This document shows positions 37,098 to 57,804 of a stretch of DNA of 64,000 nt, piece by piece. Origin of the DNA: an uncultured Sphingomonadaceae bacterium (GTDB lineage Bacteria > Pseudomonadota > Alphaproteobacteria > Sphingomonadales > Sphingomonadaceae); NCBI GenBank assembly GCA_947488625.1, contig CANKZR010000001.1, positions 868,001-932,000 on the forward strand, in the 5' to 3' direction. The translations under genes were made by a program, and so were the position numbers. The notes beneath the pieces are model-generated. The model had not been told where the DNA came from. It searched no databases and worked only from the letters and a program-made list of their open reading frames with translations. Numbering within the stretch: the stretch's first letter is position 1; each line of letters begins with the position of its first letter.

Positions 37098-37137
37098 TTT
37101 TTCGCCCCAGGACCGTGTTCCATGTGTTCCACATTAG
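37098..37137 (+). repeat. 40-bp dispersed repeat, copy A
   Basis: This 40-base sequence recurs at 57092-57131 in opposite orientation with 37 of 40 bases identical. It begins with a T5 run followed by CGCCCCAG and holds two copies of GTGTTCCA with a 9-base period. Copy A lies in the gap between divergent DUF2306 and cysS genes, 63 bases before the cysS start. On the minus strand it also encodes an ATG-initiated MWNTWNTVLGRK. The role is unknown. Confidence 0.85.
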
Positions 37138-37200
37138 TTGGATTGGCGCAGGCACCTCCCGGCTTGTCCCCCGCCGTTGCCCGCTCTAAGCCCGCCCACG

Positions 37201-38640
37201 ATGTCTGACCTCAAACTCTTCAATTCGCTAACCCGGCAGATCGAGCCGTTCGTGCCCGTCCACTCCGGGGAGGCGCGCGTTTATACTTGTGGGCCCACGG
37301 TCTACAACTACCCGCATATCGGCAATATGCGTGCCTACGTGTTCGCCGATGTGCTGGGCCGCACGCTGAGCTGGAAGGGCTACAAGCTCACCCACGTCAT
37401 CAACATCACCGACGTCGGACACCTGACCGACGATGCCGATGCGGGTGAGGACAAGCTGGAGAAAGCGGCGGCGGAACGCGCCCAATCCATCTGGGATATC
37501 GCGCAGCATTACACGCAGGCTTACTGGGAGGACGTGAAGGCGCTGAACATCCGCCAGCCCGCGCACTGGTCCGTCGCCACGGACTACATCGACGAGATGC
37601 TGGCATTCGCCAGCAGCATTGCCGACAAGCACTGCTACGAACTGGAAAGCGGCCTCTATTTCGATGTCTCTACCGTTGCGGATTACGGACGTCTCGCGCG
37701 TGCCGTAACCGAAGAGGGGGAAGGCCGCATCGATACGGTGGAAGGCAAGCGCAACGCCGCCGATTTCGCCATCTGGCGCAAGACCCCGGCGGGCGAGACC
37801 CGGCAGATGGAATGGGACAGTCCATGGGGCAGGGGCGCGCCCGGCTGGCACCTTGAATGCTCCGTGATGAGCGAAAAGCTGCTGGGCTTTCCGTTCGATA
37901 TCCATACCGGCGGCATTGACCACCGCGAGATTCACCACCCCAACGAGATCGCCCAGAACCAGGCTTTCTGCGGCTGCGGCGGCCTGTCCGATGCGGCCAA
38001 TAGCGGCGCGCGTGTGTGGATGCACAACAATTTCCTGGTGGAACGCAGCGGCAAGATGAGCAAATCGTCGGGTGAGTTCCTGCGGCTGCAACTGCTGATC
38101 GACAAGGGCTACCACCCGCTTGCCTACCGCATGATGTGCCTCCAAGCGCATTACCGCAGCGAACTGGAATTCAGCTGGGACGGGCTGGGCGCCGCACTCA
38201 CGCGGCTGAAACGAATGGTGATGCAGGCGGTGCGGTTGAAAGATGCCGAGCCTTGCCAGCCGGAGCATCCCAAGTTCGCGGCTCTGCTGGAGAAGTTCGA
38301 CACGGCGATCAGCGACGATTTGAATACAGCGATTGCGCTCACCGCGCTGGAAGAGACACTGGCCGTGAAGAAGGTCGACGCGAGCATCAAGCGCGCAGTC
38401 GTGGAGCGTATGGACGCCGTCCTCGGGCTTGGCCTGGTGGATCTTGCGCGCACCGACCTGCGCATCCGGCCAAAGAGCGCGCGGATTACCGAGGCCGAGA
38501 TCGAGGACGCGCTCTTGCAGCGCAAGGCCGCGCGCGCCGAGAAGGATTTCGCCACTTCCGATGCCCTGCGCGATGATCTTAGTGCGAAAGGCGTGGAGGT
38601 TATGGACGGCGATCCGCTGGGCTGGGAATGGGCACTTTGA
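37201..38640 (+). CDS. cysS: Cysteinyl-tRNA synthetase
   Basis: A 479-residue class I synthetase charging tRNA-Cys. The start ATG 37201 gives the usual MSDLKLFNSLTR. Signatures are CGPTVYNYPHIGN (zinc ligand Cys30 and the HIGH-like PHIGN), the zinc-site pattern GWHLECSVMSEK, HHPNEIAQNQAFCG and the KMSKS loop at residues 285-289. The frame is open to 37138 but upstream codons are not conserved. The 3' end overlaps the next gene by 13 bases. Confidence 0.98.
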   Translation: MSDLKLFNSLTRQIEPFVPVHSGEARVYTCGPTVYNYPHIGNMRAYVFADVLGRTLSWKGYKLTHVINITDVGHLTDDADAGEDKLEKAAAERAQSIWDIAQHYTQAYWEDVKALNIRQPAHWSVATDYIDEMLAFASSIADKHCYELESGLYFDVSTVADYGRLARAVTEEGEGRIDTVEGKRNAADFAIWRKTPAGETRQMEWDSPWGRGAPGWHLECSVMSEKLLGFPFDIHTGGIDHREIHHPNEIAQNQAFCGCGGLSDAANSGARVWMHNNFLVERSGKMSKSSGEFLRLQLLIDKGYHPLAYRMMCLQAHYRSELEFSWDGLGAALTRLKRMVMQAVRLKDAEPCQPEHPKFAALLEKFDTAISDDLNTAIALTALEETLAVKKVDASIKRAVVERMDAVLGLGLVDLARTDLRIRPKSARITEAEIEDALLQRKAARAEKDFATSDALRDDLSAKGVEVMDGDPLGWEWAL

Positions 38641-39575
38641 CGCAAGCCGTTTTGCCGGGCTGGATGCGCAAGCGTCTGGAAGATCGCCTGCCGCAATGGA
38701 TCGATGCTGCATGGTGGAATGACGAGGCGGAGTTGATTGCGCTGGCGCCCGAAGCGCAGATCGGTTGGTTCGACCTGCACGTGAAAACGCCTGCGCTGGA
38801 AGCCATTTCGAAAGCGCGCAGGCTGGAGTGGCTCAATTCCGCCTACGCCGGAGTTGACTGGATACCGCTCGCAGACCTGAAGGCGCGTGGGGTAAGACTG
38901 ACGTGCGGCTCCGGCCTGGCGGCAGGACAGGTGGCTGAGTTCGCGGTCATGTCCATGCTCAGCTTCGCGCGCGGCTACCCGGAGATCATCCGCGCCGGTA
39001 ATCGGCGCCAGTGGCTTTCCCGCCCGCCGTCCACTCGCGAAATGGCGGGCAGTCGCGCACTCATCCTCGGCTATGGCGCAATCGGGCAGACGATGGCACG
39101 GATGCTCGAAGCCTTCGATGTCGAATGCGTGCCCGTGCGCAGTCAGTCCGGAAAGGGCGTACTCGGTCCCGACGAATGGCGGAGTTGCCTGGGAGAGTTC
39201 GACTGGGTGGTGCTTACCCTGCCGGCCACGCCGGACACCCACGATATGATCGGCGCAGACGAACTTGCAGCCATGAGAGATGACGCCGTGCTGGTAAATT
39301 ATGGCCGCGCCGAGGTGGTGGCCCAGCCCGCACTGGTGGATGCGCTTGAGCGAAAGGCGATTGGCGGAGCCATACTCGATCTCACCACGCCAGAGCCGCT
39401 TCCGTCCGATCACAGGCTATGGGCGCTGGAAAACGCGCATATCACCATGCACCTTTGCGGCATCCCGAACGAAGCAAGCCGAGCGCGTGCTGCGCAACGC
39501 TTTCTCGACAATTGCGAGCTTTTCCGCACCGGGCAGGAGTTGGCGGGGCAGGTCGACCTTGAACGTGGTTACTGA
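38628..39575 (+). CDS. D-2-hydroxyacid dehydrogenase family protein
   Basis: A 315-residue NAD-dependent dehydrogenase of the D-isomer 2-hydroxyacid family. The cofactor motif LILGYGAIGQ lies at about 145-154, and the catalytic residues appear as Arg227 (NYGRAEVV), Glu256 (TTPEPLP) and His275 (TMHLCG). It overlaps cysS by 13 bases and is probably co-translated. The substrate cannot be read from the sequence. Confidence 0.9.
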   Translation: MGTLTQAVLPGWMRKRLEDRLPQWIDAAWWNDEAELIALAPEAQIGWFDLHVKTPALEAISKARRLEWLNSAYAGVDWIPLADLKARGVRLTCGSGLAAGQVAEFAVMSMLSFARGYPEIIRAGNRRQWLSRPPSTREMAGSRALILGYGAIGQTMARMLEAFDVECVPVRSQSGKGVLGPDEWRSCLGEFDWVVLTLPATPDTHDMIGADELAAMRDDAVLVNYGRAEVVAQPALVDALERKAIGGAILDLTTPEPLPSDHRLWALENAHITMHLCGIPNEASRARAAQRFLDNCELFRTGQELAGQVDLERGY

Positions 39576-39655
39576 GGTGGCGGGTAAAGGGGGGTGAAGT
39601 TGAGGCCGGAACAGACGGCGACGCTCTGCGTCGATCTGTCAGTCAGGAGAATCTC

Positions 39656-41089
39656 ATGCCGCACCTCGAAGATACCTATCCGCTCTACCTCAACAACAAG
39701 GCGACGCAGCCGAACACGGATCTTGAGGTAACCGACAAGTACACCGGCGAGGTCGCCTTTCGCACCGCCCTGGCGACGCCTGACATCATCGAGGAAGCTA
39801 TCGCTGGCACCGTTCGCGCGACGGAGCCAATGGCGAAGATGGCGAGTTACGAGCGGCGCGACGTGTTGCAACATTGTGTCGACAGGTTTCGCGAACGCTA
39901 CGACGAACTGGCCTATTCGCTCTGCGTCGAGGCAGGCAAGCCGATCAACGATGCGGAGGGTGAAGTCGACCGGCTGATCGACACTTTTCGCATCGCGGCG
40001 GAAGAGGCAACGCGCAACTACGGCGAGGTGCAGCCGCTGGACATTTCTGCGCGGGCCAAGGGCTACATGGGCATGTGGAAGCGCGTGCCGATCGGGCCGT
40101 GCAGCTTCATTTCGCCATTCAACTTTCCGCTTAACCTGGCCGCACACAAAATCGCGCCCGCCATCGCCGTGGGCTGTCCCTTCGTGATGAAGCCTGCATC
40201 GAAAACGCCGCTCGGCGCGCTGATCATGGGGGAGGTTCTCGCAGAAACCGATCTTCCCGAAGGTGCGTTTTCCATCCTTCCCACCAGCCGAGATGGCGCC
40301 GACCTGTTTACAGAGGACGAGCGGCTGAAACTTCTGAGCTTCACTGGATCGCCCGATGTGGGTTGGACGCTAAAGGCCAGGGCGGGCAAGAAACCGGTGG
40401 TGCTGGAACTGGGCGGCAACGCGGCGGTGGTCGTCGACAAAGATGCCGATCTCGATCACGCGCTGGAACGGGTCATCATTGGTGCTTTTTACCAAAGCGG
40501 GCAAAGCTGCATCGGTGTGCAGCGCATCATCATCCACGCCGATATTTACGACACTTTCAAAAGCATGCTGGTCGAGAAAACGAAGTCGCTGGTTTCCGGC
40601 GATCCCAAAGACCGCGATACCTTTATCGGTCCGATGATTTCCGAGAAGGAAGCAAAGCGTCTGAAAGGCTGGATCGATGACGCGGTTGATGCCGGTGCAA
40701 AATTGTTGTGCGGCGGCGACCGGGATGGTGCGATGTTGCAAGCTACCTTGCTGGAAGACGTACCGCGCGATTGCGACGCCAGCGCCGAGGAAGCGTTCGG
40801 CCCACTGGCCAACCTATCCAGGTTCAGCGATTTCGACGAAGCTCTGAAACAGGTGAATGACAGCAGGTACGGATTGCAGGCGGGTATCTTCACCCGCGAT
40901 ATTCATCGCATTCTGGATGCATGGGATGATCTTGTAGTCGGCGGCGTGGTGGTGAACGACGTATCGTCCTACCGGGTCGACAACATGCCCTATGGCGGCG
41001 TGAAGGATTCCGGTCTCGGGCGCGAAGGCATTCGCTTTGCCATGGAAGACATGACCGAGATCCGGAACCTGATTATCCGCCGTGATTGA
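39656..41089 (+). CDS. Aldehyde dehydrogenase family protein
   Basis: A 477-residue NAD(P)-dependent aldehyde dehydrogenase. The catalytic pair is intact: Glu251 in VLELGGNA and nucleophile Cys285 in GQSCIGVQR. The oxyanion and cofactor region reads PFNFPLNLAAHKIAPAIA and the C-terminal motif is EEAFGPLA. The SCIGVQR form resembles non-phosphorylating GAPDH or lactaldehyde/glyceraldehyde type enzymes, but the substrate is not certain. The gene follows the 2-hydroxyacid dehydrogenase by 80 bases in the same direction. Confidence 0.92.
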   Translation: MPHLEDTYPLYLNNKATQPNTDLEVTDKYTGEVAFRTALATPDIIEEAIAGTVRATEPMAKMASYERRDVLQHCVDRFRERYDELAYSLCVEAGKPINDAEGEVDRLIDTFRIAAEEATRNYGEVQPLDISARAKGYMGMWKRVPIGPCSFISPFNFPLNLAAHKIAPAIAVGCPFVMKPASKTPLGALIMGEVLAETDLPEGAFSILPTSRDGADLFTEDERLKLLSFTGSPDVGWTLKARAGKKPVVLELGGNAAVVVDKDADLDHALERVIIGAFYQSGQSCIGVQRIIIHADIYDTFKSMLVEKTKSLVSGDPKDRDTFIGPMISEKEAKRLKGWIDDAVDAGAKLLCGGDRDGAMLQATLLEDVPRDCDASAEEAFGPLANLSRFSDFDEALKQVNDSRYGLQAGIFTRDIHRILDAWDDLVVGGVVVNDVSSYRVDNMPYGGVKDSGLGREGIRFAMEDMTEIRNLIIRRD

Positions 41090-41116
41090 GCGGGGCGGAC
41101 GGGTGAGCCCGGCGGC

Positions 41117-41473
41117 TCATCCTTCCTCCAGCAACAGTATTTCGCAAGTTACTGTCAACTTGGGCGGCGATGCCGAGCTATCGACTTGCGTTATGGCCGC
41201 GTCGGCTACCAATTGGCCACGAATTGTGAACTCGTGTTCGGGCAGGAATACGATGAAGCACTCGCCTGCTTCCACCGCGTCATCGCCTTCGAACACCATC
41301 CGGATACGGTGACGCGCCCCAGCGAAGGTGATGCTGGCCCAACTTTTTTCGGAATGGCTATCTATCCGGCCCTTTCCGTCGGACAGGTTGATCAAGGCTT
41401 CCGCCAGCCGTTCACGCGGCCCACGAAGGTTGCGGCGCCTGGCGGGGGGAGGAGTAATGGGATCAGTATGCAT
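41117..41473 (-). CDS. Hypothetical protein, PilZ-like size
   Basis: A 118-residue soluble protein starting MHTDPITPPPARRRNLRGPRERL. The middle part has alternating hydrophobic residues (SWASITFAGARHRIRMVFEG, ECFIVFLPEHEFTIRG), suggesting a beta-rich fold, and the end reads LTVTCEILLLEEG. I cannot assign a family. The start overlaps the stop of the small gene upstream by 11 bases, so the two form a short operon divergent from the S24 repressor gene. Confidence 0.65.
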   Translation of the reverse strand: MHTDPITPPPARRRNLRGPRERLAEALINLSDGKGRIDSHSEKSWASITFAGARHRIRMVFEGDDAVEAGECFIVFLPEHEFTIRGQLVADAAITQVDSSASPPKLTVTCEILLLEEG

Positions 41474-41651
41474 TGGTCATCTCGCGGTATTTGTTCATGA
41501 AATGTTCCACCCGTTTTTCCGTAGTAGGGCGGGGTGTACGACCGTTGCGCAGATCGAGCACGAATCGCGGATCGCGAGTCGCAAGACGGCCGAACTTGGT
41601 AGGTGGCATGCGCGTGTGGCGCAGAAAAACTTCGATTTTGCGGATGAGCAT
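41463..41651 (-). CDS. Small conserved hypothetical protein
   Basis: A 62-residue basic protein: MLIRKIEVFLRHTRMPPTKFGRLATRDPRFVLDLRNGR followed by EKRVEHFMNKY. The helix-rich first half with MPPTKFGRLA, then DPRFV, is suggestive of a short helix-turn-helix DNA-binding protein (compare HTH sequences of the SxxxFGxxxxxD type). It overlaps the downstream gene by 11 bases and lies divergent from the S24 repressor gene across 140 bases. Function inferred only from pattern. Confidence 0.7.
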   Translation of the reverse strand: MLIRKIEVFLRHTRMPPTKFGRLATRDPRFVLDLRNGRTPRPTTEKRVEHFMNKYREMTNAY

Positions 41652-41728
41652 GGTGCGGACCCCTCTTCCTTTTTCCCTTGTTTAACGAGCACTTGTGCGA
41701 CTCGATTTCGCCCATCTTGCGATCCAAA

Positions 41729-41786
41729 TCCTACTTGTCTAGGAAAAATACATCGTGTAGGACGATTTTTACGTTAACGTAGGATT
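41729..41786. promoter_or_regulatory. Candidate operator of the S24 repressor gene
   Basis: Within the 140-base gap between divergent genes sit a perfect 12-base palindrome (TACGTTAACGTA, 41770-41781), a second 5+5 palindrome (ATCGT/ACGAT, 41752-41766), and three TAGGA hexamer-like repeats (41740, 41758, 41780). The perfect palindrome lies 10 bases before the repressor start codon, a common place for an autoregulatory site. The binding protein is not shown by sequence. Confidence 0.55.
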
Positions 41787-41791
41787 ATACG

Positions 41792-42424
41792 ATGGAACCG
41801 CGTGAGAAACTGGCAGAACTGGCAAGGGAGCGTGGCGTCAGCTTGGCTGCGCTTTCGCGTATGCTCGCGCGTAATCCCACCTATCTCCAGCAATATATCA
41901 GCAAGGGTAGCCCAAGAAAGCTGGAGGAGGAGGACCGTCGGGTCCTCGCAAAATTCCTCGGTGTGGAGGAAGCCGTATTGGGTGGGCCTAAGGAAAGTTC
42001 CTATGTTTCCCGTGATGGCACTGATTGGGTCGAGGTCCCCCGCCTCGAAGTCGATGCCTCTGCCGGTCCGGGTTCTGCCAGCGCGCAGGAGGGCATGTTC
42101 GATGCCTTCCGCTTCTCGCAACGCTGGCTGACGGAGCAGGGGCTGGATGGCGCAAAGCTTTCCGCCATCCGCGTGGTTGGCGATTCCATGGAACCCCTGC
42201 TGCGCGAGGGCGACGAGGTGTTGGTGGACTGCCGGGAGCAGCCTTTCCGCGATGGCGTGCACGTGGTGCGGCTGGACGAGCTTTTGCTGGTGAAACGCGT
42301 CGCCTCGAAAGGAGGCGGGCGCTTTTCATTGCTCAGCCAGAACCTGGCCTATCCGCCACTTGATGTCGCTGCTGACGAATTTGCGATCATTGGCCGGGTG
42401 GTCTGGAAAAGCGGGCGGGTCTAA
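41792..42424 (+). CDS. S24/LexA-like repressor protein
   Basis: A 210-residue protein with an N-terminal helix-turn-helix-like part (LAELARERGVSLAALSRMLARNPTYLQQYIS) and a C-terminal S24 peptidase domain. The serine-lysine pair is Ser132 in GDSMEPLL and Lys168 in LLLVKR. A candidate self-cleavage Ala-Gly pair (Ala91-Gly92) lies in the linker. Such proteins act as cI/LexA-like repressors that cleave themselves under DNA damage, though many relatives lack that response. It faces a divergent small operon across a palindrome-rich gap. Confidence 0.87.
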   Translation: MEPREKLAELARERGVSLAALSRMLARNPTYLQQYISKGSPRKLEEEDRRVLAKFLGVEEAVLGGPKESSYVSRDGTDWVEVPRLEVDASAGPGSASAQEGMFDAFRFSQRWLTEQGLDGAKLSAIRVVGDSMEPLLREGDEVLVDCREQPFRDGVHVVRLDELLLVKRVASKGGGRFSLLSQNLAYPPLDVAADEFAIIGRVVWKSGRV

Positions 42425-42834
42425 TCCCAGCCAGCTTGCCGCATCGCGATGGTGTCATTCCAGATTTTCGTCATGTGGCTGATCTTTTCGCCATCGAACT
42501 TGATGACGTAGCAATATTCGGACGCCACTGTCTTTCCGGTAGGAGGAACTGGTCCGCCATCTCCTGTATGAGTAGCAATGAAAGTGGCGGCCGCACAGAT
42601 CGTGTTGCGATCTTCATCGATGCCGAATGCGATCATTTCATATCGCATGTCCGGCATTGGTTCGAGCAGATGCGCCATCGATTCTGTATAGGCTTCAAGC
42701 GTTTCGGTTTCCCCGAAAAGGTCTGTCTGCGAAGAGAAGGACGCGCCCGCACTGCACCACTGCTTGCAGACGCTCCACCCTTTTCCGGTCTCACAAGCAT
42801 CGAAAAATGCGAGTGCGTTTTCTTTCATTCCCAT
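42421..42834 (-). CDS. SnoaL-like/NTF2-fold protein
   Basis: A 137-residue small protein. ENALAFFDACETGKGW at the N-terminus and the series of beta strands that follow (MRYEMIAFGIDEDRN, CYVIKFDGEKISHMTKIWN) match the NTF2-like SnoaL-type fold. The function is undetermined; relatives include polyketide cyclases and isomerases. It overlaps the end of the convergent S24 gene by four bases. Confidence 0.78.
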   Translation of the reverse strand: MGMKENALAFFDACETGKGWSVCKQWCSAGASFSSQTDLFGETETLEAYTESMAHLLEPMPDMRYEMIAFGIDEDRNTICAAATFIATHTGDGGPVPPTGKTVASEYCYVIKFDGEKISHMTKIWNDTIAMRQAGWD

Positions 42835-42952
42835 CGAATATCCCCCTCTGACTGCGTGAGGTTACAGCAGGCGGGGAGATTTAAAAGGCGAACCTCGATC
42901 CTCGGGAGAAGCACGCTTGCAACCTGTGCCCGTCACCGCCACCTATCCAGAC

Positions 42953-43618
42953 ATGACCAGTCAAGCCCCGATCCGCGCCGCAATCATCCCCGTTACCCCG
43001 TTCCAGCAGAACTGCTCGCTGGTCTGGTGTTCCAAGACCAAGCGCGGCGCGCTGGTCGATCCGGGTGGAGAGCTGGACAAGCTGAAGGACGCGGTTGCGA
43101 AGGCAGGGGTGACGCTGGAGAAGATCCTGCTCACGCACGGCCACGCCGATCACTGCGGGCAGGCAGGCATGCTGGCAGACGAGCTTGGCCTGCCGATCGA
43201 GGGCCCGCACGAGGAGGATCGCTTCTGGATCAGTCGCCTCGAGGATGATGGCCCGCGATTTCAGATGCAATGCGAGGTGTTCGAACCCTCACGCTGGCTG
43301 AAAGATGGCGATACCGTCAGCTTTGGCGAGGTTACGATGGAAGTTCTGCATTGCCCCGGCCACACGCCCGGCCACGTGGTGTTTTTCCACCGGCCCACGA
43401 ATTTCGCCTTCGTCGGTGACGTCCTGTTCCAAGGCAGCATCGGCCGCACCGATTTCCCGATGGGCAACCACCAGGATTTGCTGGATGCGATTACCCAGAA
43501 ACTTTGGCCGCTCGGCGATGGAGTCACATTCGTGCCCGGCCACGGTCCTACCAGCACGTTCGGGCAGGAACGGCAGAGCAACCCCTATGTGTCCGATGCC
43601 GCGATGGCGCAGGGCTGA
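42953..43618 (+). CDS. Metallo-beta-lactamase fold hydrolase (GloB-like)
   Basis: Starting at ATG 42953 the protein has 221 residues. It carries the metal-binding motif THGHADH (His62, His64, Asp66, His67), the downstream HCPGHTPGHVVFF and FVGDVLFQGSIGRTDFP segments, and GHGPTST near the end. These are characteristic of glyoxalase II-like hydrolases of the YcbL type. The specific thioester substrate is not given by the sequence. The frame opens at 42917 but those codons are not conserved. Confidence 0.93.
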   Translation: MTSQAPIRAAIIPVTPFQQNCSLVWCSKTKRGALVDPGGELDKLKDAVAKAGVTLEKILLTHGHADHCGQAGMLADELGLPIEGPHEEDRFWISRLEDDGPRFQMQCEVFEPSRWLKDGDTVSFGEVTMEVLHCPGHTPGHVVFFHRPTNFAFVGDVLFQGSIGRTDFPMGNHQDLLDAITQKLWPLGDGVTFVPGHGPTSTFGQERQSNPYVSDAAMAQG

Positions 43619-43625
43619 TGCGCAG

Positions 43626-44021
43626 CTAGATGATGCCGAAGGCGACGAGCGCCGCCCATACGATCCAGATCGCATATGGCAGCATGGTCATAAGCATGCC
43701 AACCATGCGCGGCTTGCTTGGTTTGTCCGCTTGCATGCCGATTGCGTGAAGAACCCGGCCCAGCAGAAACACCGCCGCGGTAAGCGCGAGCAACCAACCG
43801 TGCTGTTCGTTGAGGTCCAGCACGAGGATCAGCAGCAGCGCGATCGGCGTATATTCGATGAAGTTGGAATGCGCGCGCATGTGACGCTGCAAAGATGTGT
43901 CTCCGCCATCGCCGTGCAGCACCTTGGCTTTTCCACGCCCGGCACCGCAACGCGATGCGAGCCAGAGATTGATCAGCCCTGCCATCGCGATGCTGAGCAG
44001 GCTTATGTGATGCTCTACCAT
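43626..44021 (-). CDS. MAPEG family membrane protein
   Basis: A 131-residue four-span protein. The signature RAHSNFIEYTPIALLLI lies near residue 50 and HAIGM near 92, both typical of MAPEG-type proteins (membrane-associated eicosanoid and glutathione metabolism family). The bacterial members often have glutathione-related activity but this one is not characterised. Confidence 0.88.
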   Translation of the reverse strand: MVEHHISLLSIAMAGLINLWLASRCGAGRGKAKVLHGDGGDTSLQRHMRAHSNFIEYTPIALLLILVLDLNEQHGWLLALTAAVFLLGRVLHAIGMQADKPSKPRMVGMLMTMLPYAIWIVWAALVAFGII

Positions 44022-44073
44022 TGTTAGTTCCCCCGAATGATCCCACCTTCTTGCTAGAACCGGTCGGGCGCGC

Positions 44074-44101
44074 TTGCAACTGTGTGAGAAAACGCTATAG
44101 C
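44074..44101 (+). promoter_or_regulatory. Putative promoter of the rpmF operon
   Basis: TTGCAA (44074-44079) and TATAGC (44096-44101), 16 bases apart, match -35 and -10 elements for the housekeeping sigma factor reasonably. They lie about 120 bases before rpmF, the first gene of the following same-strand block. The call is from consensus resemblance only. Confidence 0.35.
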
Positions 44102-44217
44102 GCGCGCCTTCGCCGCATCCTTGAATAGGGCTGCTCCGGCGCGCTTGCGCATCGGACAGCCTTGGCCTAGGGCGGCTCCGATATCAATTTTGAACGAATT
44201 CAAGGAACAGGTGCCGC

Positions 44218-44400
44218 ATGGCTGTCCCTAAAAGAAAAGTTTCGCCGCATCGCCGGGGCAATCGCCGGTCACATGATTCGCTGAAGGTTGAAGCCTTCCA
44301 CGAATGCTCCAACTGTGGCGAGCTGAAGCGCCCGCACATGCTTTGCAACGCCTGTGGTCATTACAATGGCCGGCAGGTTATCGAGCCCAAGGGCCTGTAA
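44218..44400 (+). CDS. rpmF: 50S ribosomal protein L32
   Basis: A 60-residue L32 with [17 protein letters not shown] at the N-terminus and a zinc-ribbon-like pair, ECSNC and MLCNAC, showing that this is the Cys-bearing form. AAGGAACAGG precedes the ATG. It starts the conserved rpmF-plsX-fabH cluster that couples ribosome protein supply to fatty acid and phospholipid synthesis genes. Confidence 0.98.
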
Positions 44401-44430
44401 AGTCCAAACCGGACGAAGGAGGTCGCGCGC

Positions 44431-45501
44431 ATGAGCCTGCCCCGTATCGCGGTTGATGCGATGGGCGGGGATCATGGCGTGCGCGTCATGGTTTCCGGAG
44501 CGGCGCTTGCGCGTCGCCGCCACGACAAGTTCAAATTCCTGCTGGTGGGGGACGAGGAGCGCATCAAGCGCGCTCTCGACGATCACCCCGGCATGCGCGA
44601 AGCATCGGAAATCCTGCATTGCGACGATGTTGTGGCGGGCGACGAGAAGCCCAGCCGCGCGCTACGCCGTGCAAAGACGACCAGCATGGGCCTTGCCATA
44701 CAGGCCGTGAAAGATGGCAACTGCGGCGCGGCGGTCAGCGCCGGCAATACCGGTGCGCTCATGGCCATGAGCAAGCTGGCCCTGCGCACGATGCCGGGTA
44801 TCGACCGTCCTGCCCTCGCAGCCCTGCTGCCCACGCTGGAAGAGCATGACGTGATCATGCTGGACCTTGGTGCCAATACCGATTGCGATGCGCGCAACCT
44901 CGTGCAGTTCGCCATTATGGGCGCTGCCTATTCGCGCATCGTCAACAAGGGGCGCACCCCGCGTGTCCGCCTGCTGAACATCGGCACCGAAAGCATCAAG
45001 GGCACCGACGATCTGCAGCGGGCAGCGCAATTGCTGCAGAATGCCACCGACCTCGACATGCAGTTCGACGGGTACGTGGAAGCCGACAAGATCAATCGCG
45101 GTCAGGTTGATGTTGTGGTCAGCGACGGGTTCTCCGGCAATATCGCATTGAAGGCGATCGAAGGGTCCGCTCGGTTTGTCACAGATCTTCTTAAAACGGC
45201 TTTCACCAGTTCGCTGCGATCGAAAATCGGATTTCTCGTGTCCCGCCCGGCTACCGAATTGCTGAAACACCACCTCGATCCCAATAACCACAATGGCGGG
45301 GTATTCCTCGGCTTGAATGGCGTGATCGTGAAATCGCACGGCAGCGCCAATGCGCAGGGGGTGGCCAACGCCGTCGCCGTAACCGCACGCCTGCTGGAGG
45401 ATGACATTACCGATCGGATTGCCGCCGATCTTTCCAAGATGGGTGAAGAAGCCTTGAGCGGTAGTAGCGCGGCCCCGGCAGAAGAGACGGTGAGCAAGTG
45501 A
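44431..45501 (+). CDS. plsX: Phosphate acyltransferase PlsX
   Basis: A 356-residue enzyme that makes acyl-phosphate from acyl-ACP for phospholipid synthesis. It opens [13 protein letters not shown], the family hallmark, and has [15 protein letters not shown] near residue 107 and [13 protein letters not shown] near 233. The gene lies 30 bases after rpmF and its end overlaps fabH by four bases, so the three are one operon. A GAAGGAGG ribosome-binding site precedes the start. Confidence 0.98.
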
Positions 45502-46463: not shown

Positions 46464-46555
46464 GATAATACCGAGAAATTGCGCGCCACCTTGCGCAACG
46501 GTTGGTTTTCCTACATAAAAGTCCTGGGTCGTCAGGAAAAGAGGAGTGGGTACGC

Positions 46556-46861
46556 ATGAATGTTATGCGATCCGTCGGTACGCTTACGCGCGCAGACCTG
46601 GCAGAGACGATCAATCACAAGATGGGGTTTTCACGGGCCGAGAGCCTTGACCTCGTCGAAGCAATCCTCGCCAAGATGTGCGATGCGATGTCCGATGGCG
46701 AAAATGTAAAAATATCCGGTTTCGGCAGCTTCGTGCTGCGAGACAAGAAAGAGCGTATCGGACGCAATCCCAAGACCGGGGTCGAGGTTCCTATTACCCC
46801 GCGCCGGGTGATGACGTTCCGTGCCAGCCAGAAGCTCAAAGAGCGTATCGCCCAGGGCTGA
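46556..46861 (+). CDS. ihfA: Integration host factor subunit alpha
   Basis: A 101-residue DNA-bending protein of the IHF/HU family. Starting at ATG 46556 (GAGGAG upstream) it reads [19 protein letters not shown], and has the typical arm region [21 protein letters not shown] and [17 protein letters not shown]. With IhfB it bends DNA at recombination and promoter sites. ATG 46565 is an alternative start. It lies 92 bases downstream of fabH with its own ribosome-binding site. Confidence 0.95.
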
Positions 46862-46881
46862 TGTACCGGACACGTTTCTGA

Positions 46882-47262: not shown

Positions 47263-47311
47263 CACACCCTAAAACTGAAGCTTTCTGCATGACTGCAGGC
47301 AGACGGTCCGA

Positions 47312-50589: not shown

Positions 50590-50801
50590 CGATGCCCACT
50601 ATCCGGGGTGAGAACGAAATGTAAACGGATTTGCACTCACGAAGCCGTGGAAGAACGCCTGCACAATTTACGGAGAGCGTACGATTTGTCGCAAATCCGG
50701 TGCTACCCATCGCGTACAATGGCTTGCACGAAAGGTGGGAAGGACTTGCGGCCTTTCATTCATTGGCGCGAAAGACGCAAGGTGCCTATGGCGTCGGCGC
50801 A

Positions 50802-51749
50802 ATGGCCAGAATACCTAGAATCGTACTATTATCGGCGATGCCGTTGTCGCTGAGTCCGGCTGTCTCGCTGGCTCAGGACGAAGGTGAGCGCATTGAAACC
50901 GCGCAGGCCACCCAGCCGCAGACGATCAATCCCGCGCAAGGCATTCCCGACGACTTCACCTTGCCGCCCGGCCCTACCGCGACACCACAAAAGCGGCTCG
51001 AACCGATGGTTCAGCCACTGCCACAGCCAAGCGCCAGCCCAACCACCGCACCAACGCCTGCGCGAGAAGTTCCACAACCGAGGAGCACTCCTGTTCCGCA
51101 GCAGACAGGCCCCAACCGCACCCCGTCCGGACGCACCGTTCCCGACAGAGCGACACCACCTGTTACCAGAACCGTTGCACCCCGCGCCGAACCGGTGCCG
51201 CAAGTAGAGGAAACTTTGTCGGCGGTGGAACCGGAACCTTCTTCAACAGAGCAGGACGTTGCGCCGGCCAGCCCCTCCACCCGAGCTCAGCCGGAGACGT
51301 CGCGGGCTGCGGCGACCGATCTGCCCGACCGGGCGGAGGTTGCTGCCGCCCAAACCGGTTGGGGAATTTTCGCGTGGCTTCTTGGTGGGATCATCGTGTT
51401 GGCGCTGGGTGGATTAGCTTTCTGGTTATTGCGGCAGCGCAAGGAAGAAGGTTCCGCGGTCGAGAAGATCGAGCCCTATCGACCAAAGTCAGAGCCGGAC
51501 GCCGTGAAGGATAGCCCGCGCGTGGAAGAAGTGCCGCAGGCAAAGTCAGGCGCGCAGATGCCAAGGGGCCTTGTCAACGTTAGTCGTCCCGCACCTGCGA
51601 CTAATCCAGGCGGGTTTGTGACAAGCTCGATCGCCACGCGTCGCATGGATCCGCGGGGCGCAAGCGAGCAAACGCAGTCGCGAAGCAACATGTCATCTGA
51701 CGGTCGGATCGTCACAACACTGTCTGCAACGAGGACCCGCCGCGACTAG
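50802..51749 (+). CDS. Pro-rich single-span membrane protein
   Basis: Starting at ATG 50802 the protein has 315 residues: a signal-like N-terminus (MARIPRIVLLSAMPLSLSPAVSLAQ), a long periplasmic part rich in Pro, Thr, Ser and Gln (about 25-180), one membrane span (about 190-210), and a charged cytoplasmic tail. Repeated patterns such as TPAREVPQPRSTPVPQQ dominate the external part. The frame is open to 50631 but codons before 50802 do not look like a signal peptide. I do not recognise the family. Confidence 0.68.
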   Translation: MARIPRIVLLSAMPLSLSPAVSLAQDEGERIETAQATQPQTINPAQGIPDDFTLPPGPTATPQKRLEPMVQPLPQPSASPTTAPTPAREVPQPRSTPVPQQTGPNRTPSGRTVPDRATPPVTRTVAPRAEPVPQVEETLSAVEPEPSSTEQDVAPASPSTRAQPETSRAAATDLPDRAEVAAAQTGWGIFAWLLGGIIVLALGGLAFWLLRQRKEEGSAVEKIEPYRPKSEPDAVKDSPRVEEVPQAKSGAQMPRGLVNVSRPAPATNPGGFVTSSIATRRMDPRGASEQTQSRSNMSSDGRIVTTLSATRTRRD

Positions 51750-51819
51750 CTGCGCATCCTTCCTCGGGTTCTGGGGAGGATACCAAGGCAAATGCGTCGC
51801 GCCGATCTGTCTTGTTGCC

Positions 51820-52695
51820 CTAGTCGGCCGTCTTTTCTGATGAAACCTGTTCGATACGCAGCGGTTCGGCAAAGTAGTTGGTCTGGATGGGGAAGGGGAT
51901 GTCGATACCGGCCGCATCAAGGCTCTTTTTGATAGCCTTGATTGCCTCGCTCTTGGTCTGCCGCAGATCGCGCGCCGCGGACTGGGCGTACCATTGCACG
52001 AGAAAGTCGATCGAGCTTCCGCCGAATTCCTGCGCATAGACGATAACAGGACGATCCTTCACCACCGCATCCACGGTTGTCATCGCCTCTTCAATGGCCT
52101 TTTGCGCGACTTCAAGATCGGTTTCGTAGGATACGCCAACAACCACTTCGTTACGCCGTACCGTGTCGTCGGTCAGGATCTTCACCGCGTTCTTGAACAG
52201 CATCGAATTAGGCATGATAGTGAGTTCGTTGGAAAGCTGGCGTATATAGGTTTCCCGCAAGGTGATCTTTTCAACCTTGCCCAGAACACCTTCGACCTCG
52301 ATCAGGTCGCCGATGCGCATCTTCTCGCGCAGCATGATGAGAATGCCTGCAAGGAAGTTCTCGAAAATGTCCTGAAAGGCAAAGCCGATCGCAAGTGCAC
52401 CAATACCGAGGCCGGCGATCATACCGGTCGGCGTGAAACCCGGTATCGCGATGATCAGCGCCAGCATGATGCCGACCAGCCAGATAAACAGGCGGACGAT
52501 GGTTTCCACCAGCTGCCGCAGATCTTCGCGCATGTTCGATTTGCCGGTCAGCTTGTCAGCAATACGCACGGCGAACTTCGCGACGATCCACGTAAGCATC
52601 AGAACGATAATCGCGATGGCAAGGTTCGGCAGAATGGCGATGAAGCCAGCCCACATGGACGTGACCTGCTCTTGCAGGATGGCGATGTAATTCAA
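51820..52695 (-). CDS. MscS-family mechanosensitive channel
   Basis: With the TTG at 52695 as start (MNYIAILQEQ, GGGGG upstream) the protein has 291 residues, a good size for a small MscS. It has three spans in the first 120 residues and the pore helix GMIAGLGIGALAIGFAFQDI, then the beta domain with GDLIEVEGVLGKVEKI and a C-terminal cytoplasmic region. Relatives protect cells from hypo-osmotic shock. The frame is open upstream to 52854 but those residues have no homology-like character. Confidence 0.85.
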   Translation of the reverse strand: MNYIAILQEQVTSMWAGFIAILPNLAIAIIVLMLTWIVAKFAVRIADKLTGKSNMREDLRQLVETIVRLFIWLVGIMLALIIAIPGFTPTGMIAGLGIGALAIGFAFQDIFENFLAGILIMLREKMRIGDLIEVEGVLGKVEKITLRETYIRQLSNELTIMPNSMLFKNAVKILTDDTVRRNEVVVGVSYETDLEVAQKAIEEAMTTVDAVVKDRPVIVYAQEFGGSSIDFLVQWYAQSAARDLRQTKSEAIKAIKKSLDAAGIDIPFPIQTNYFAEPLRIEQVSSEKTAD

Positions 52696-52813
52696 GGGGA
52701 CCCCCGGGGGTAAAATTAACGAATGATATGCCAACGCGACATATCGGCGCGCGGTTCCTACATGCTTTCCGCGCTTGCACAACGGCGCGTGATCCGCAAA
52801 AGCCCGGCGCATC

Positions 52814-54442
52814 ATGTTCAGCACCGATCTTATCGAAGCCGCCCGCACTTCCAAGGCCTGGCCTTTCCAGGAGGCGCAGCGCTTGGCAAAACGCTATCGC
52901 GATGGCAAGCCGGGCGGCGAACCCATATTGTTCGAGACCGGTTACGGTCCCAGCGGACTGCCGCACATCGGCACCTTCCAGGAAGTGCTGCGCACGACGT
53001 TGGTCCGCAAGGCCTATGAAATCGTGGCCGCCAGCGACGACGGCACGCCTGCGCCCACTCGCCTCGTTGCATTCAGCGATGATATGGATGGTTTGCGCAA
53101 GGTGCCCGACAACGTGCCCAACAAGGCGATGCTGGAGGAAAATCTTCATAAGCCGCTAAGTCGCATTCCGGACCCTTTCGAGAAGCATGAAAGCTTCGCC
53201 GCACACAACAACGCGATGCTGCGGGAATTTCTTGACCGCTTCGGCTTCGAGTACGAATTCATCGCCGCATCAGACCGCTACAATTCGGGCGCGTTCGACG
53301 ATGCCTTGCGCGCAGTGCTGCGCAACAATCAGGCTATTCTCGATATCATGGTACCCACGCTGCGTGCGGAACGCGCGGCGACCTATTCCCCCATCATGCC
53401 TATCTCGCCCACGACAGGCCACGTGCTGCAGGTGCCGGTCGAGGTGGTGAATGCAGAAGAGGGTGTCGTCCGTTTTACCGATACCGACGGTTCGACGATC
53501 GAGCAGAGCGCGCTTGGCGGGATGGCCAAGCTGCAGTGGAAGGTCGATTTCGCCATGCGCTGGGTCGCGCTGGGTGTCGATTACGAGATGTACGGCAAGG
53601 ACCTGACTGATACCGGTGTGCAATCGGGCAAGATCGCGAAGGTGCTGGGCGGTCGCAAGCCGGAAGGGCTGATTTACGAGCTGTTCCTGGATGCGAACGG
53701 CGAGAAAATTTCCAAGTCCAAGGGCAACGGCCTGACGATCGAGGAATGGTTGGCCTACGGCAGCGAAGAGAGCCTGGGCTTCTATATCTTTCCCAATCCG
53801 AAAAGCGCGAAGCAGTTGCACGTCGATGTAATCCCGCGCGCCGTCGATGATTATTGGCAGTTCCGCGAACGGATAACTGAACAGTCCATCGACAAGCAGC
53901 TAGGCAACCCGGCATGGAACCTGCTGCGGGTGAAGGATTCCAGCGGTTCGCAACCGCCCATCGGTGCGGGCGACAGCCTGCCGGTCACCTATGGCCTCCT
54001 GCTGAACCTTGTCAGCGTGCTCGGCGCGACGGCAACGCATCAGCAGGTGTGGTCGTACCTTGGCAATTACATGGACGACACCGATCCCGACGACCACCCG
54101 GACCTGTTCCGCCTTGTCGAGAAGGCGCTCGCCTACAACCGCGATTTCGTCGCCCCCACGCTGAAAAAGCGCGCGCCAACCGAGAACGAAGCTGCTGCCC
54201 TGCGCGAACTGGATGCCCGGCTGGCGGATCAGGCAGAGGACGCGGCAGCCGAAGACTTGCAGACGATCGTTTACGAAATCGGCAAGAACGAGGCTCACGG
54301 CTTTGACAACCTGCGCGACTGGTTCAGGGCGCAGTACGAGACGCTGCTGGGTTCTTCGCAAGGGCCCCGCATGGGCAGCTTTATCGCGCTCTACGGCGTT
54401 CAGAATACGCGCAAACTGATTGCCGAGGCGCTGGCGCGCTGA
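52814..54442 (+). CDS. lysK: Class I lysyl-tRNA synthetase
   Basis: A 542-residue synthetase. The HIGH-like motif is in GPSGLPHIGTF near residues 45-55 and the KMSKS loop is KISKS at 298-302. The arrangement is that of archaeal-type class I LysRS, also used by many alphaproteobacteria, and not the class II lysS found in most bacteria. It charges tRNA-Lys. The gene is transcribed divergently from mscS. Confidence 0.97.
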   Translation: MFSTDLIEAARTSKAWPFQEAQRLAKRYRDGKPGGEPILFETGYGPSGLPHIGTFQEVLRTTLVRKAYEIVAASDDGTPAPTRLVAFSDDMDGLRKVPDNVPNKAMLEENLHKPLSRIPDPFEKHESFAAHNNAMLREFLDRFGFEYEFIAASDRYNSGAFDDALRAVLRNNQAILDIMVPTLRAERAATYSPIMPISPTTGHVLQVPVEVVNAEEGVVRFTDTDGSTIEQSALGGMAKLQWKVDFAMRWVALGVDYEMYGKDLTDTGVQSGKIAKVLGGRKPEGLIYELFLDANGEKISKSKGNGLTIEEWLAYGSEESLGFYIFPNPKSAKQLHVDVIPRAVDDYWQFRERITEQSIDKQLGNPAWNLLRVKDSSGSQPPIGAGDSLPVTYGLLLNLVSVLGATATHQQVWSYLGNYMDDTDPDDHPDLFRLVEKALAYNRDFVAPTLKKRAPTENEAAALRELDARLADQAEDAAAEDLQTIVYEIGKNEAHGFDNLRDWFRAQYETLLGSSQGPRMGSFIALYGVQNTRKLIAEALAR

Positions 54443-54466
54443 ACCGCCCCCGGCTCTAACCCGGAC

Positions 54467-55150
54467 CTAGCGCCACTCGCGCGTGCGGTACCACTTGGTG
54501 ATGATGTACTTCGAACCGGCCTGAACGGGCCTGCCGGCGTGCATCGTCTTGTCGTTGGTGACCCCGGAGGGATCGGCATTGTTCCAGATCAGCAGCACGC
54601 CGGGCTTGGGTTCGAGCGAAATGCCCAATTCGGTGAAGTCGGTAGTGCCGCCCGCTTCCACAGCGTTCAGAAAAACCATGGTGGTGAAGCTGCGCTGCCC
54701 GCCGCGACCCATCTCGAAGTCCCAGTAGCTGGTGCCGGGATGAAACCAGTCGTGATGCGGCTGGAATTCCTGCCCTGGCATGTACCGCTGGCCCTGTATG
54801 GTTTCACCGAAGCGCGGGTCCATTCCCAGCAGATCGTCGATGCGGCGGCCAATCTTCTTAACGAAGGGGTCATGCGGGTCCACGTCGCCCGAATAGCTTG
54901 TGCGGTAGCCGGATTCGTAATCCAGATCGAACACCTTGCTGGGCTTGGCCGTCGCGTCGATCAGTTCCATCATCTTCGCGCATTCGGCAGCCGTCATGAA
55001 ATCCCCCACCGCGAACAGTTCCGCGCCCTCGCTGGGAATCGTGTAGACCGCTGGGTTGGCCGCCAGCCGTTCGCGCACCTGCTTGCCCACCGTCCTGAGC
55101 CGCGCCTGGTCTGCATTCACCGGAATGGGAGATTTCGTCTTGCTAGCCAT
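54467..55150 (-). CDS. Prolyl 4-hydroxylase-like 2-oxoglutarate dioxygenase
   Basis: From ATG 55150 the protein has 227 residues. The iron-binding facial triad is visible: His132 and Asp134 (PHHDWF) and His204 (MHAGRPV), and a nearby Arg/Lys in KYIITKWYR fits 2-oxoglutarate binding. It matches bacterial prolyl 4-hydroxylase-type oxygenases. The protein target is unknown. ATG 55150 gives a standard start; upstream codons are non-conserved. Confidence 0.87.
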   Translation of the reverse strand: MASKTKSPIPVNADQARLRTVGKQVRERLAANPAVYTIPSEGAELFAVGDFMTAAECAKMMELIDATAKPSKVFDLDYESGYRTSYSGDVDPHDPFVKKIGRRIDDLLGMDPRFGETIQGQRYMPGQEFQPHHDWFHPGTSYWDFEMGRGGQRSFTTMVFLNAVEAGGTTDFTELGISLEPKPGVLLIWNNADPSGVTNDKTMHAGRPVQAGSKYIITKWYRTREWR

Positions 55151-55243
55151 GATGCATAGGCTTTTTCCATTGCTGGCACGCGTAAGCAAGGGGTCTTGAA
55201 GCCACAAACGCGAAACCCCCCGCCCGGTTAGGGGCAGGGGGTC

Positions 55244-55270
55244 CATTGCCGGCCACTCGCTCCGGCAATG
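55244..55270 (-). terminator. Stem-loop downstream of the RcnB-like gene
   Basis: A perfect 9-bp stem (CATTGCCGG/CCGGCAATG) with a 9-base loop lies 12 bases after the RcnB-like stop on the minus strand. It has no strong T-run, so it may be only an attenuating or 3'-end structure. The region between it and the dioxygenase gene has a G-rich stretch. Confidence 0.45.
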
Positions 55271-55282
55271 AGCGTAGTTCGA

Positions 55283-56326
55283 TTACCAGAAGAAATCGTG
55301 GATCACGTCGACCACTTCGCCGGTGTAGATATCCACCAGCACGACATCGTCGTAATAGCGAACCCAGCGGTAGGGGCCGTAGACTTCGGGCAGGCGATAC
55401 TGCCAGGGGTCGTTGATCCAGTAGCGATTACCGTAGAACAGATCGTTCAGGTAGAAACCGATGCTCAGGCGGCGATAGCTGTAGTTGCGATAGGGCGAAT
55501 AATAGCGGCCCAGGCGGTACAGACCACGATTGTTCGAGCGGTAACGGTTCCAGTTGTACCGGCGATCGTTGCGCCACTGATTCCGGTTCCACCGGCGATA
55601 GTCGCGGCGTGCTTCGCGCCTTGCATCCCGCCGCGCTTCACGACGATATTCGCGGCGATCGTTGCGGTAGTCGCGCTGGTCGCGATAATTGCGCTGGTCG
55701 CGGTATCGACGCTGGTCGCGCTCACGATAGTTGCGCTGGTTGCGGTCACGGTACGTCCGGTTGCGGTCGCCGTCGCGATAGCTGCGATTGCGGGTGCTTA
55801 CCTGCCGATTGCCCTGGCGGATGTTGTCTGCCCGGCGATCACCGCGACGTTCGATCCGGTCTGCCCGGCGTTCGGAACGGCGATCGATCTGGCGCGCCTC
55901 GCGGCGATCTCCGTTGCGGCGCGCCTGGTTTGCCTGGCGATCACCGCGACGTTCCACACGGTCTGCCCGGCGTTCGCTGCGATTTTCCACGCGGCGCGCC
56001 TGCTGCCGTGCTGCATCACGACGAGCGCGAGCTTGTTCACGATCGGACGTGCGAACGGGCCGTTCGGCGCGTTCCCGTGGAGCGCGGCGAGTCTCGCGAT
56101 TGGCGCGGCGTTGCTGCCGCGCTTCGCGATTGTCACGCCGGTCCTGCCGCGCTTCACGGTTGCCACGACGGTCTTGACGCGCATCGCGGTCACGGCGCTG
56201 CTGATCTTCCGCAGCTTCGGTGGCGGCATTCGCGGCGGCTTCGGCGGTTTCCGGTATCATCGGAATCGCCAGCGCAGCAGCGAGAGCGGCGAGGCCGCAT
56301 GATTTCATGAGTTCTGCGAGTTGCAT
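55283..56326 (-). CDS. Exported Arg-rich RcnB-like protein
   Basis: A 347-residue protein from ATG 56326 (GGGAG upstream). It has a signal peptide (cleavage near AEAAA), then about 210 residues of Arg-, Asp- and Gln-rich repeats such as RRGDRRADN and RDQRNYRDQ, and a C-terminal domain ending VYGPYRWVRYYDDVVLVDIYTGEVVDVIHDFFW. The C-terminus fits the RcnB family, which is linked to periplasmic nickel/cobalt handling in E. coli. The very long basic low-complexity middle is unusual in amount. Function inferred only from the C-terminus. Confidence 0.75.
   Translation of the reverse strand: MQLAELMKSCGLAALAAALAIPMIPETAEAAANAATEAAEDQQRRDRDARQDRRGNREARQDRRDNREARQQRRANRETRRAPRERAERPVRTSDREQARARRDAARQQARRVENRSERRADRVERRGDRQANQARRNGDRREARQIDRRSERRADRIERRGDRRADNIRQGNRQVSTRNRSYRDGDRNRTYRDRNQRNYRERDQRRYRDQRNYRDQRDYRNDRREYRREARRDARREARRDYRRWNRNQWRNDRRYNWNRYRSNNRGLYRLGRYYSPYRNYSYRRLSIGFYLNDLFYGNRYWINDPWQYRLPEVYGPYRWVRYYDDVVLVDIYTGEVVDVIHDFFW
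55600..56210 (-). repeat. Degenerate Arg-codon-rich repeat block within the RcnB-like gene
   Basis: The plus strand of this stretch shows repeated CGCGCTGGTCGCG-type and GCGCTCG-type phrases, encoding degenerate units such as YRDQR, NRETR and RRxDRR. Repeat borders are irregular, and the coding frame is kept throughout. Such coding repeats can expand or contract by slippage. Confidence 0.7.
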
Positions 56327-56450
56327 TGCAACATCTCCCTTGTGTTGACCAATGCCACACGAGTGATGCGGCGGAGGAAGTCTTTCGATGTCACAAGTTG
56401 TAACAAGGTGCGATGAGCGGTATCTGAACCGGGGTGTATGGCGTTCGTTC

Positions 56451-57071
56451 ATGTTAAACGCCATGAACCTTAACGGTATTTTTCAAGAGGGCCGTGCTAT
56501 CGAAACCCTTGATAACATTCGCAACGATATCGCGGCGCGCCTGAACGAAGGCGCAACACGTCGACGGTCCGCGCTGCATACGCCTGTCGTAGCCACCGCC
56601 GATGCCGATGCGCGGGTCATGGTGCTGCGAGCTTTCGAACGCGCGAACTGGCGGCTGCGCTTCCATACCGATGCCCGGTCCCCGAAATGCGCTGTCATCG
56701 CGAATGGAGCGCCTGTAGGCGTCCTCTTCTACGACCGGGAGGCGAAGCTGCAACTGCGCTGCCGGGGGCGCGGCTGGATTGAGCGCGATACGCCGCTGGC
56801 CGATACCGCCTGGCAAAGCAGCGACAACTACGCCCGCCGTTGTTACCTTGGTGAAGGGCCGGGTGCTGTATCGGATGGCCCTACGTCTGGCCTGCCAGCA
56901 AGGTTCGAAGGCGTAAAGCCAAGCGATACCGAACTCGCCCCCGCGCGGGAGCACTTTGCGATCCTGCTGGTCGAACTGGAAATGGCCGACTGGTTCAGCC
57001 TTGCGCACGATGGCCACAAGCGCGCGATAATTGATCTGAAGACGGGTGAGGGGCACTGGGTCTCGCCCTGA
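56451..57071 (+). CDS. PNPOx-like FMN-binding protein
   Basis: A 206-residue protein (start ATG 56451; 56463 and 56388 are alternatives) of pyridoxamine-phosphate-oxidase fold. It has VMVLRAFERANWRLRFHTDARSPKCAVIANG in the FMN region and CRGRGWIERDTPLAD. Relatives include pyridoxamine 5'-phosphate oxidases and FMN-dependent oxidoreductases. The active form cannot be specified. It is divergent from the RcnB-like gene. Confidence 0.82.
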   Translation: MLNAMNLNGIFQEGRAIETLDNIRNDIAARLNEGATRRRSALHTPVVATADADARVMVLRAFERANWRLRFHTDARSPKCAVIANGAPVGVLFYDREAKLQLRCRGRGWIERDTPLADTAWQSSDNYARRCYLGEGPGAVSDGPTSGLPARFEGVKPSDTELAPAREHFAILLVELEMADWFSLAHDGHKRAIIDLKTGEGHWVSP

Positions 57072-57091
57072 TCTGTCCCGTGCTTTGCCGG

Positions 57092-57131
57092 TTAATGTGG
57101 AACACCTGGAACACGGTACTGGGGCGAAAAA
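57092..57131 (-). repeat. 40-bp dispersed repeat, copy B
   Basis: Read on the minus strand this is the second copy of the element at 37098-37137, 37 of 40 bases identical. It sits between convergent genes (PNPOx-like ends at 57071, the four-span protein ends at 57231). On the plus strand it starts a short ATG frame (57095-57223, 42 codons) beginning MWNTWNTVLGRK; the two wobble differences with copy A inside those 12 codons are both synonymous. The short frame is not called a gene. Confidence 0.85.
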
Positions 57132-57740: not shown

Positions 57741-57804
57741 GGCCTTGCAACGGGCAGGGCGCACGGGGTTTCCGCCCGTAGCTTTTGTTAAGTTGCGCGG
57801 GAGC

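Follow-up and report, generated by a model that had tools for sequence, protein, structure and literature searches.

A 40-bp element at two places in the window

The window analyzed here is a stretch of 64,000 nucleotides (C1:868001–932000) from the genome of an uncultured Sphingomonadaceae bacterium (G000; 3.21 Mb in 14 contigs). It contains two copies of a 40-bp sequence (the 40-mer), which is considered below as a candidate operator for a helix-turn-helix (HTH) protein resembling phage terminase small subunits. Copy 1 lies at 37098–37137 on the plus strand and copy 2 at 57092–57131 on the minus strand. As described in the original prediction, which was based on the window only, the copies are inverted, and a recount gave 37 identical bases out of 40. 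Both contain the T5 run, CGCCCCAG and the two GTGTTCCA words with a period of 9 named there, and the gene settings were found as given: copy 1 lies upstream of cysS (+), which is divergent from a gene for a DUF2306 protein (-) (both by Pfam), and copy 2 lies between convergent genes. The features around both copies are as follows.

36996–37004, plus strand: box A of copy 1, promoter-like, CTTTCCTAC, recognized by enrichment of the box
37033–37137, plus strand: leader open reading frame (ORF) of copy 1, GTG start, 34 codons, terminal TAG; open through the site, which is in frame 0
37098–37102, plus strand: T-run of copy 1
37108–37131, plus strand: core site of copy 1, CAGGAC and two tandem half-sites, word TTCC
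37201–38640, plus strand: cysS, downstream of copy 1
57220–57228, minus strand: box A of copy 2, GTTTCCTAC, directly past the stop codon of the upstream gene
56454–57191, minus strand: leader ORF of copy 2, starting with ATG; it stays open across the site (frame 1) and beyond, antisense to the convergent gene
57127–57131, minus strand: T-run of copy 2
57098–57121, minus strand: core site of copy 2, CAGTAC variant, word TTCC
57231–57764, minus strand: gene upstream of copy 2, 177 amino acids, without Pfam match

A search of the window with TGTTCCANGTGTTCCAC, allowing up to three mismatches, gave three matches (the two copies and one at three mismatches), compared to 0.28 expected. In the whole genome, the 23-base core CGTGTTCCANGTGTTCCACATTA with up to three mismatches matched 17 places and the reversed pattern none. 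Thus, the repetition of the 40-mer exceeds chance, and the pair in the window is not the only one. A scan of the 64-kb window with Rfam at gathering score gave no match to a known RNA family.

The site carries a genome-specific word

The 17 sites of the own genome align without gaps to TTTTT-N7-CAGGACNGTGTTCCANGTGTTCCACATTAG. In general form, the site consists of a T-run followed by CAGGACANTG, a word of four bases, CAnnTG, the word again and CA. A profile of the 17 sites, applied at the lax limit of E ≤ 0.5, found matches in 31 of 37 genomes of the same genus (own genome included) and at least 10 matches in 21 of these 31, among the matches listed; genomes of other families gave one or two weak matches in 8 of 24 cases, again among the matches listed. 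The TTCC form (at most one mismatch) was rare in the wider family, being present in 2 of 149 genomes including the own one. When the pattern was generalized, one word was observed per genome, equal in both half-sites and in nearly all copies among the matches listed. TTCC, CTCC, TAAC and TCAC were the words in a search of 20 genomes (matches listed), and TGAC and TGTC were added by a search of 179 genomes of the family, 20 of which matched the strict general pattern. The reversed patterns yielded five matches in the 20 genomes and none in the 179; a recurrent match in the 20-genome search, CAGGTCGCTGCCGCA.., resembles coding sequence and not the site. Exceptions among the matches listed were a mixed first half-site in G161 and G154, and one CTCC copy each in G171 and G012. 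G182 has a single site.

Some further variants were noted. G161 holds two site classes, CAGGACACTGTCAC.. and CTGGACACTGTGCC.., the second of which is by eye commoner in the half of the chromosome near parB. One locus of G150 (L132) has three tandem 9-mers instead of two, and one of G211 (L394) has the additional word TCTC with the helix residues RA.

The original prediction had read an ATG followed by MWNTWNTVLGRK on the opposite strand of both window copies, and this reading can be seen there by eye. In genomes with other words, neither the ATG nor MWNTWNTVLGRK occurs on that strand, i.e., the putative peptide is not conserved, and the repeated mini-gene proposed for it was rejected. A -35/-10 promoter inside the 40-mer was also dropped, because the right end of the 40-mer is not kept in relatives; the original view that the 40-mer is not a simple promoter was correct, and a promoter-like box lies about 100 bp upstream of it.

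Most copies end a leader element of about 150 bp

Upstream of the site, most copies show the same succession of box A (CTTTCCTAC), start codon, short ORF and T-run, and the middle of this element is not conserved. The motif TCCTAC was found 148 times in the 200 bp upstream of 203 sites, compared to 3.8 expected from the far flanks. These 203 sites have half-sites that differ by at most one base, and they include near-duplicates of the same place and about eight chance matches from unrelated genomes (e.g., L193, L195, L200, L207, L226 and L252). Counting variants, box A accompanies 162 of the 203 sites, mostly at a distance of 97–125 bp. In 364 kb of own DNA, NTTTCCTAC was found 10 times, four of them with a site. 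At 46507–46514 (+) in the window, TTTCCTAC lies just 5' of an IHF/HU-like gene (by eye) without a 40-mer.

Past box A there is a weak peak of CTA at +21/22 (37 of 162) and a strong one of ATG at +34 to +37 (131 of 162). A start codon at +33 to +38 followed 136 of 149 boxes and was missing from 13. Both window copies have box A and start codon, with GTG used by copy 1. Box A and CTA may therefore be a promoter-like pair, with the start codon at or near the expected start of the transcript. The distance between box A and site showed no 10.5-bp phasing. Some copies are flanked by TCCTACA upstream and TGTAGGA downstream, which resemble terminal repeats. An intrinsic terminator was rejected, since there is no stable hairpin directly before the T-run: the mean folding energy there was -12.1, equal to control flanks (-12.1), and that of shuffled sequences was -11.2 (202 sites).

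The leader ORF is kept open irrespective of its frame

From the ATG up to the site, in-frame stop codons were present in 10 of 132 leaders, compared to 58.8 expected by shuffling; the other two frames had stops in 89 and 38, the frame +1 count being raised by ATGA. The ORF spans the whole site in 119 of 131 ATG cases and in all five GTG cases. When each of 54 orthologous groups was weighted once, 6.4 were interrupted by a stop codon before the site ended, with 23.8 expected up to its start. The original prediction had considered coding on the opposite strand, where it was not supported; signs of translation appear on the site strand, from the upstream start codon. A shared reading frame was not found there: the site occupies all three frames of the leader ORF (39, 46 and 47 of 132), and in 22 of 28 multi-member groups its frame varies among the members. 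Where the word itself would read as a stop codon in one frame, sites are seldom placed in that frame (2 of 25 vs. 45 of 107; Fisher p 0.001, relatedness ignored). No coding bias was seen in the base and residue composition of the leader ORFs. Because stops are depleted, site frames vary and stop-making frames are avoided, it seems that openness is kept and not a peptide, with translation on the site strand. A leader-peptide attenuator was rejected, as there are no conserved regulatory codons in one frame.

The word is associated with the predicted recognition helix of an HTH protein

Outside the window, the own genome encodes an HTH protein (C1:1691794–1692594) that matches PHROG 4044, terminase small subunit, with E values of 9.9e-20, 5.9e-19 and 2.1e-17 for three queries. 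Its match to Pfam Sf6_terminase was below the cut-off (16.8 bits vs. 27), the NCBIfam search gave no match over cut-off, and Foldseek with the whole model none at E ≤ 0.001. In G169, G216 and the own genome, uvrA lies to one side of the gene and rlpA/argG to the other, with up to several small genes intervening. By eye, no large terminase or head genes were recognized in the 14–17 kb around it in these three genomes; the neighbors were not searched against libraries.

In 28 orthologues with six word classes, alignment columns 33 and 32 showed the highest association with the word (z of 8.1 and 7.8), followed by column 23 (z 6.9) and the adjoining column 31 (z 5.9); the permutation p, which ignores relatedness, was at its floor of 1/2001 for these and others. 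Columns 33 and 32 are the first two residues of the predicted recognition helix, helix 57–66, which is the second helix of the HTH in the structure model (mean predicted local distance difference test score, pLDDT, of 73.5; about 88–91 at this helix). The 28 were drawn from 35 distinct helices, only distinct ones having been kept, after leaving out L174 (a remote paralogue), G173, G162, G158, G163, G175 and G168; three words were set by hand (L127, L357 and L135) and two were taken from the genome-wide word (G097 and G098). At an identity of 0.55–0.65 in the rest of the protein, proteins with the same word shared 1.26 of the 2 helix residues, compared to 0.49 for those with different words, and at 0.65–0.80 the values were 1.58 and 0.80. 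G091 and G216, of the same genus, differ in word and helix together. The pairs are mostly AQ or PQ with TTCC, RQ with TCAC, RM with TAAC, YR with TGAC and RS with TGTC, and helices beyond the 28 agree: G074 and G114 (AQ) have TTCC, and G213 (YR) has TGAC in the gene.

Site and protein also occur together. A relative of the HTH protein at E ≤ 3.1e-31 was present in 25 of 26 genomes with the site, as judged by our reading of the matches listed, and in none of the four genomes without it (G158, G162, G163 and G173; 5.2e-20 or weaker). In the family sample, all 20 genomes with the strict pattern had a relative at E ≤ 2.1e-23 among the matches listed (p 3e-11, relatedness ignored); both E-value limits were chosen after the values were known. 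A site was found within 1.2 kb of 27 of the 35 distinct helices (L174 among them), always on the strand of the HTH gene, some sites fall inside the gene itself, and a variant of box A lies within 600 bp upstream of 17 of 18 HTH genes.

The HTH proteins form a multi-copy family, with up to six matches per genome among the matches listed; G057 has four very similar ones. After a remote HTH paralogue in the own genome come first an array of GGTGACACTT-like repeats and then the 40-mer (C3:170725–171139; L015, L369; also L158, L166, L174), and similar arrays precede sites in relatives.

Sites keep their places ahead of core genes

Sixteen of the 17 own sites adjoin the same genes in relatives, with offsets within about 150 bp (nine loci without a recognizable site were left out of this comparison). 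Upstream of folP, the site is kept in 10 of the 13 loci parsed out of 30 and absent in G012, G155 and G162; its words there are TTCC, CTCC, TAAC, TAAC/TCAC and two odd ones (G175 and G168). Overall, in 16 of 28 multi-member orthologous groups, the members differ in the word at their common place, minor variants counted.

Gene context was classified for 189 sites with 500 bp on each side, genes being ORFs called by codon score. Seventy-nine sites have genes of the site strand on both sides; 47 lie between divergent, 22 between convergent and 15 between two antisense genes, 21 are intragenic (19 in sense) and five lack a neighbor. The downstream gene is on the site strand for 129 of 167 intergenic sites. 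Genes downstream include cysS, queE, purS, folP, lon, lepB, rpsA, sdhB, lolC, ruvA, ctrA and chpT (by eye except cysS). In the own genome and several relatives (L011, L153, L061, L275 and L276), a site without box A lies about 30 bp past the recA stop codon.

Fifteen of the 17 own sites lie within 1.22 Mb of C1. For 141 sites of 12 genomes, the mean distance from parB was 0.60 on a half-chromosome scale of 0–1, with 14, 21, 30, 34 and 42 sites in successive bins outward from parB and 89 of 141 in the terminus half; in these figures some genome lengths are rounded and orthologous sites are counted repeatedly. By eye, no site polarity along the replication arms was seen in G150 and G169, and GC skew of the sampled stretches was too weak for locating the terminus. 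The sites lean to the terminus without being confined there. Of the chromosome-organization motif that had been offered originally, this lean stands; the ties to the promoter-like box and to gene starts speak against it, and it is not favored. The many copies favor the protein-binding site offered beside it, as does the association of their word with the predicted recognition helix in one HTH protein.

Interpretation

Most likely, the site is an operator inside translated leaders that would block or attenuate transcription. Such a roadblock or attenuation suits the position of the site past the promoter-like box, mostly in sense and within an open stretch, whereas an operator at the promoter, a packaging start or a terminus site would suit it less. 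We give an even chance to the full reading, by which the 40-mer would be the operator of a host-owned, terminase-small-subunit-like HTH protein and a translation-coupled roadblock in the leaders of core operons. Transcription would start between box A and the start codon, and a ribosome would follow at once. About 100 bp past the box in most cases, inside the short ORF and ahead of core operons, the HTH protein bound to the tandem words would stop or slow RNA polymerase, and the closely following ribosome would prevent termination or help the polymerase past. Expression would then depend on both the HTH protein and translation, and the protein might be autoregulated via the site that its gene carries.

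Several observations weigh against this reading. Among the 26 HTH genes parsed (four of 30 loci were unparsed), 14 have no site in or near the gene, 11 have one and one match looks spurious. Box A is missing from 41 of the 203 sites, the recA 3' sites among them, and the downstream gene is antisense for 38 of the 167 intergenic sites, including copy 2. Relatedness inflates the association scores, and column 23 and other columns also reach the permutation floor. There are misfits (G223 with RQ and TTCC; L127 and G087 with RQ and mixed words), and G155 has TTCC sites with only a remote HTH relative (9.9e-10). An equally good relative was found in 40 of 159 genomes without the strict pattern, among the matches listed; these may use other words, like G098 (CTCC) and G074 (one TTCC site). 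Finally, the avoidance of frames in which the word is a stop is not fully explained, since a stop inside the site would do no obvious harm to a roadblock.

Some of these points would suit another binding protein, with the HTH protein merely sharing its ancestry with the words, namely the inflation by relatedness, the lack of a close relative in G155 and the many HTH genes without a site. We consider this unlikely, as the two top columns are neighbors at the start of the recognition helix, same-word proteins share more helix residues at a rest-identity of 0.55–0.65 (1.26 vs. 0.49 of 2), and G091 and G216 differ jointly in word and helix within one genus. The site might instead act in RNA, bound by a protein or small RNA or loading an antitermination complex while ribosomes pass; it is in the transcribed sense, and reading through it is open whatever the frame. 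The association with a DNA-type HTH helix and the lack of an Rfam match in the window make this quite unlikely.

Chromosomal pac-like or chromosome-organization sites, at which the protein would mark DNA for packaging or organize the terminus, would account for the terminus lean and for a protein that is terminase-like and has a site in many of its genes. The sites are associated with box A, a start codon and an open frame and with the orientation of genes, they are not confined to the terminus, and phage genes were not recognized by eye beside the HTH gene, whose neighbors were not library-searched; this possibility is decidedly unlikely, and a terminus-confined motif was rejected, with only 89 of 141 sites in the terminus half. 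A mobile short repeat, similar to a miniature inverted-repeat transposable element (MITE) or a repetitive extragenic palindromic (REP) sequence and spread per lineage, is disfavored and very improbable. Dispersed copies and the TCCTACA/TGTAGGA flanks of some would be expected of it, and against it the places are not lineage-specific (16 of 17 own sites hold theirs), the word varies at a given place in 16 of 28 groups and the middle of the element is not conserved.

If the operator reading is true, a phage packaging protein became a regulator of core genes, e.g., cysS, folP, queE, lon, lepB, ctrA and chpT (by eye except cysS); the regulon changes its operator word repeatedly among close relatives, and the helix residues that match can be read alongside; and a leader ORF is under selection solely for being open. 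From the genomes compared, the bacterial family appears to have kept the terminase-like protein as a gene of its own. More tentatively, and somewhat short of an even chance, a phage small terminase would have been taken over as host regulator of core operons, with operators in frame-independent, ribosome-swept leader ORFs, and protein and operators would have repeatedly co-rewritten their shared word at some ten to thirty sites per genome within one family. Nature would thereby supply a code table for a recognition helix, and the roadblock coupled to translation would be a switch of a new kind. Among the papers listed for motif strings, the box, repeats in Erythrobacter, leader peptides, gene transfer agents and small terminases, also as regulators, no description of this site or regulator was found.

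Comparison with known systems

LexA-type regulons comprise tens of sites, and their operators change between lineages; the alphaproteobacterial LexA box is GTTC-N7-GTTC. The element described here is similar in the number of sites and in its operator shifts and differs in half-sites 9 bp apart and a word that is not fixed. A LexA SOS box was rejected, since the half-sites are spaced by N5 here and the word is not the same from genome to genome. Attenuators of the trp type also have a short leader ORF ahead of structural genes, but here peptide and frame are not conserved and no terminator hairpin precedes the T-run. MatP/matS and ZapT resemble the present case in a few tens of sites and some lean to the terminus, to which, in contrast, the present sites are not confined, being linked with gene orientation and a promoter-like box. 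For ZapT, a protein of the MerR type, no consensus site was found (PMC7188993).

RcGTA, the gene transfer agent of Rhodobacter capsulatus, offers with g1 another small terminase kept by alphaproteobacteria; its product gp1 appears to lack an HTH domain and binds DNA weakly and non-specifically (PMC6854486). The small terminase (TerS)/pac system of phages SF6 and SPP1 is alike in the HTH protein (PHROG 4044), the tandem direct repeats and a site in or beside many of the protein's own genes; the small terminase gene of SPP1-like phages overlaps at its start with the pac region (PMC4737164). Unlike in phages, the gene described here is kept between uvrA and rlpA/argG with no phage genes recognized adjacent by eye, and further sites lie ahead of core genes. 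The SF6 domain bound DNA with little sequence specificity (PMC4737164), in contrast to the sharp word preference that the genome-specific words suggest for the HTH protein.

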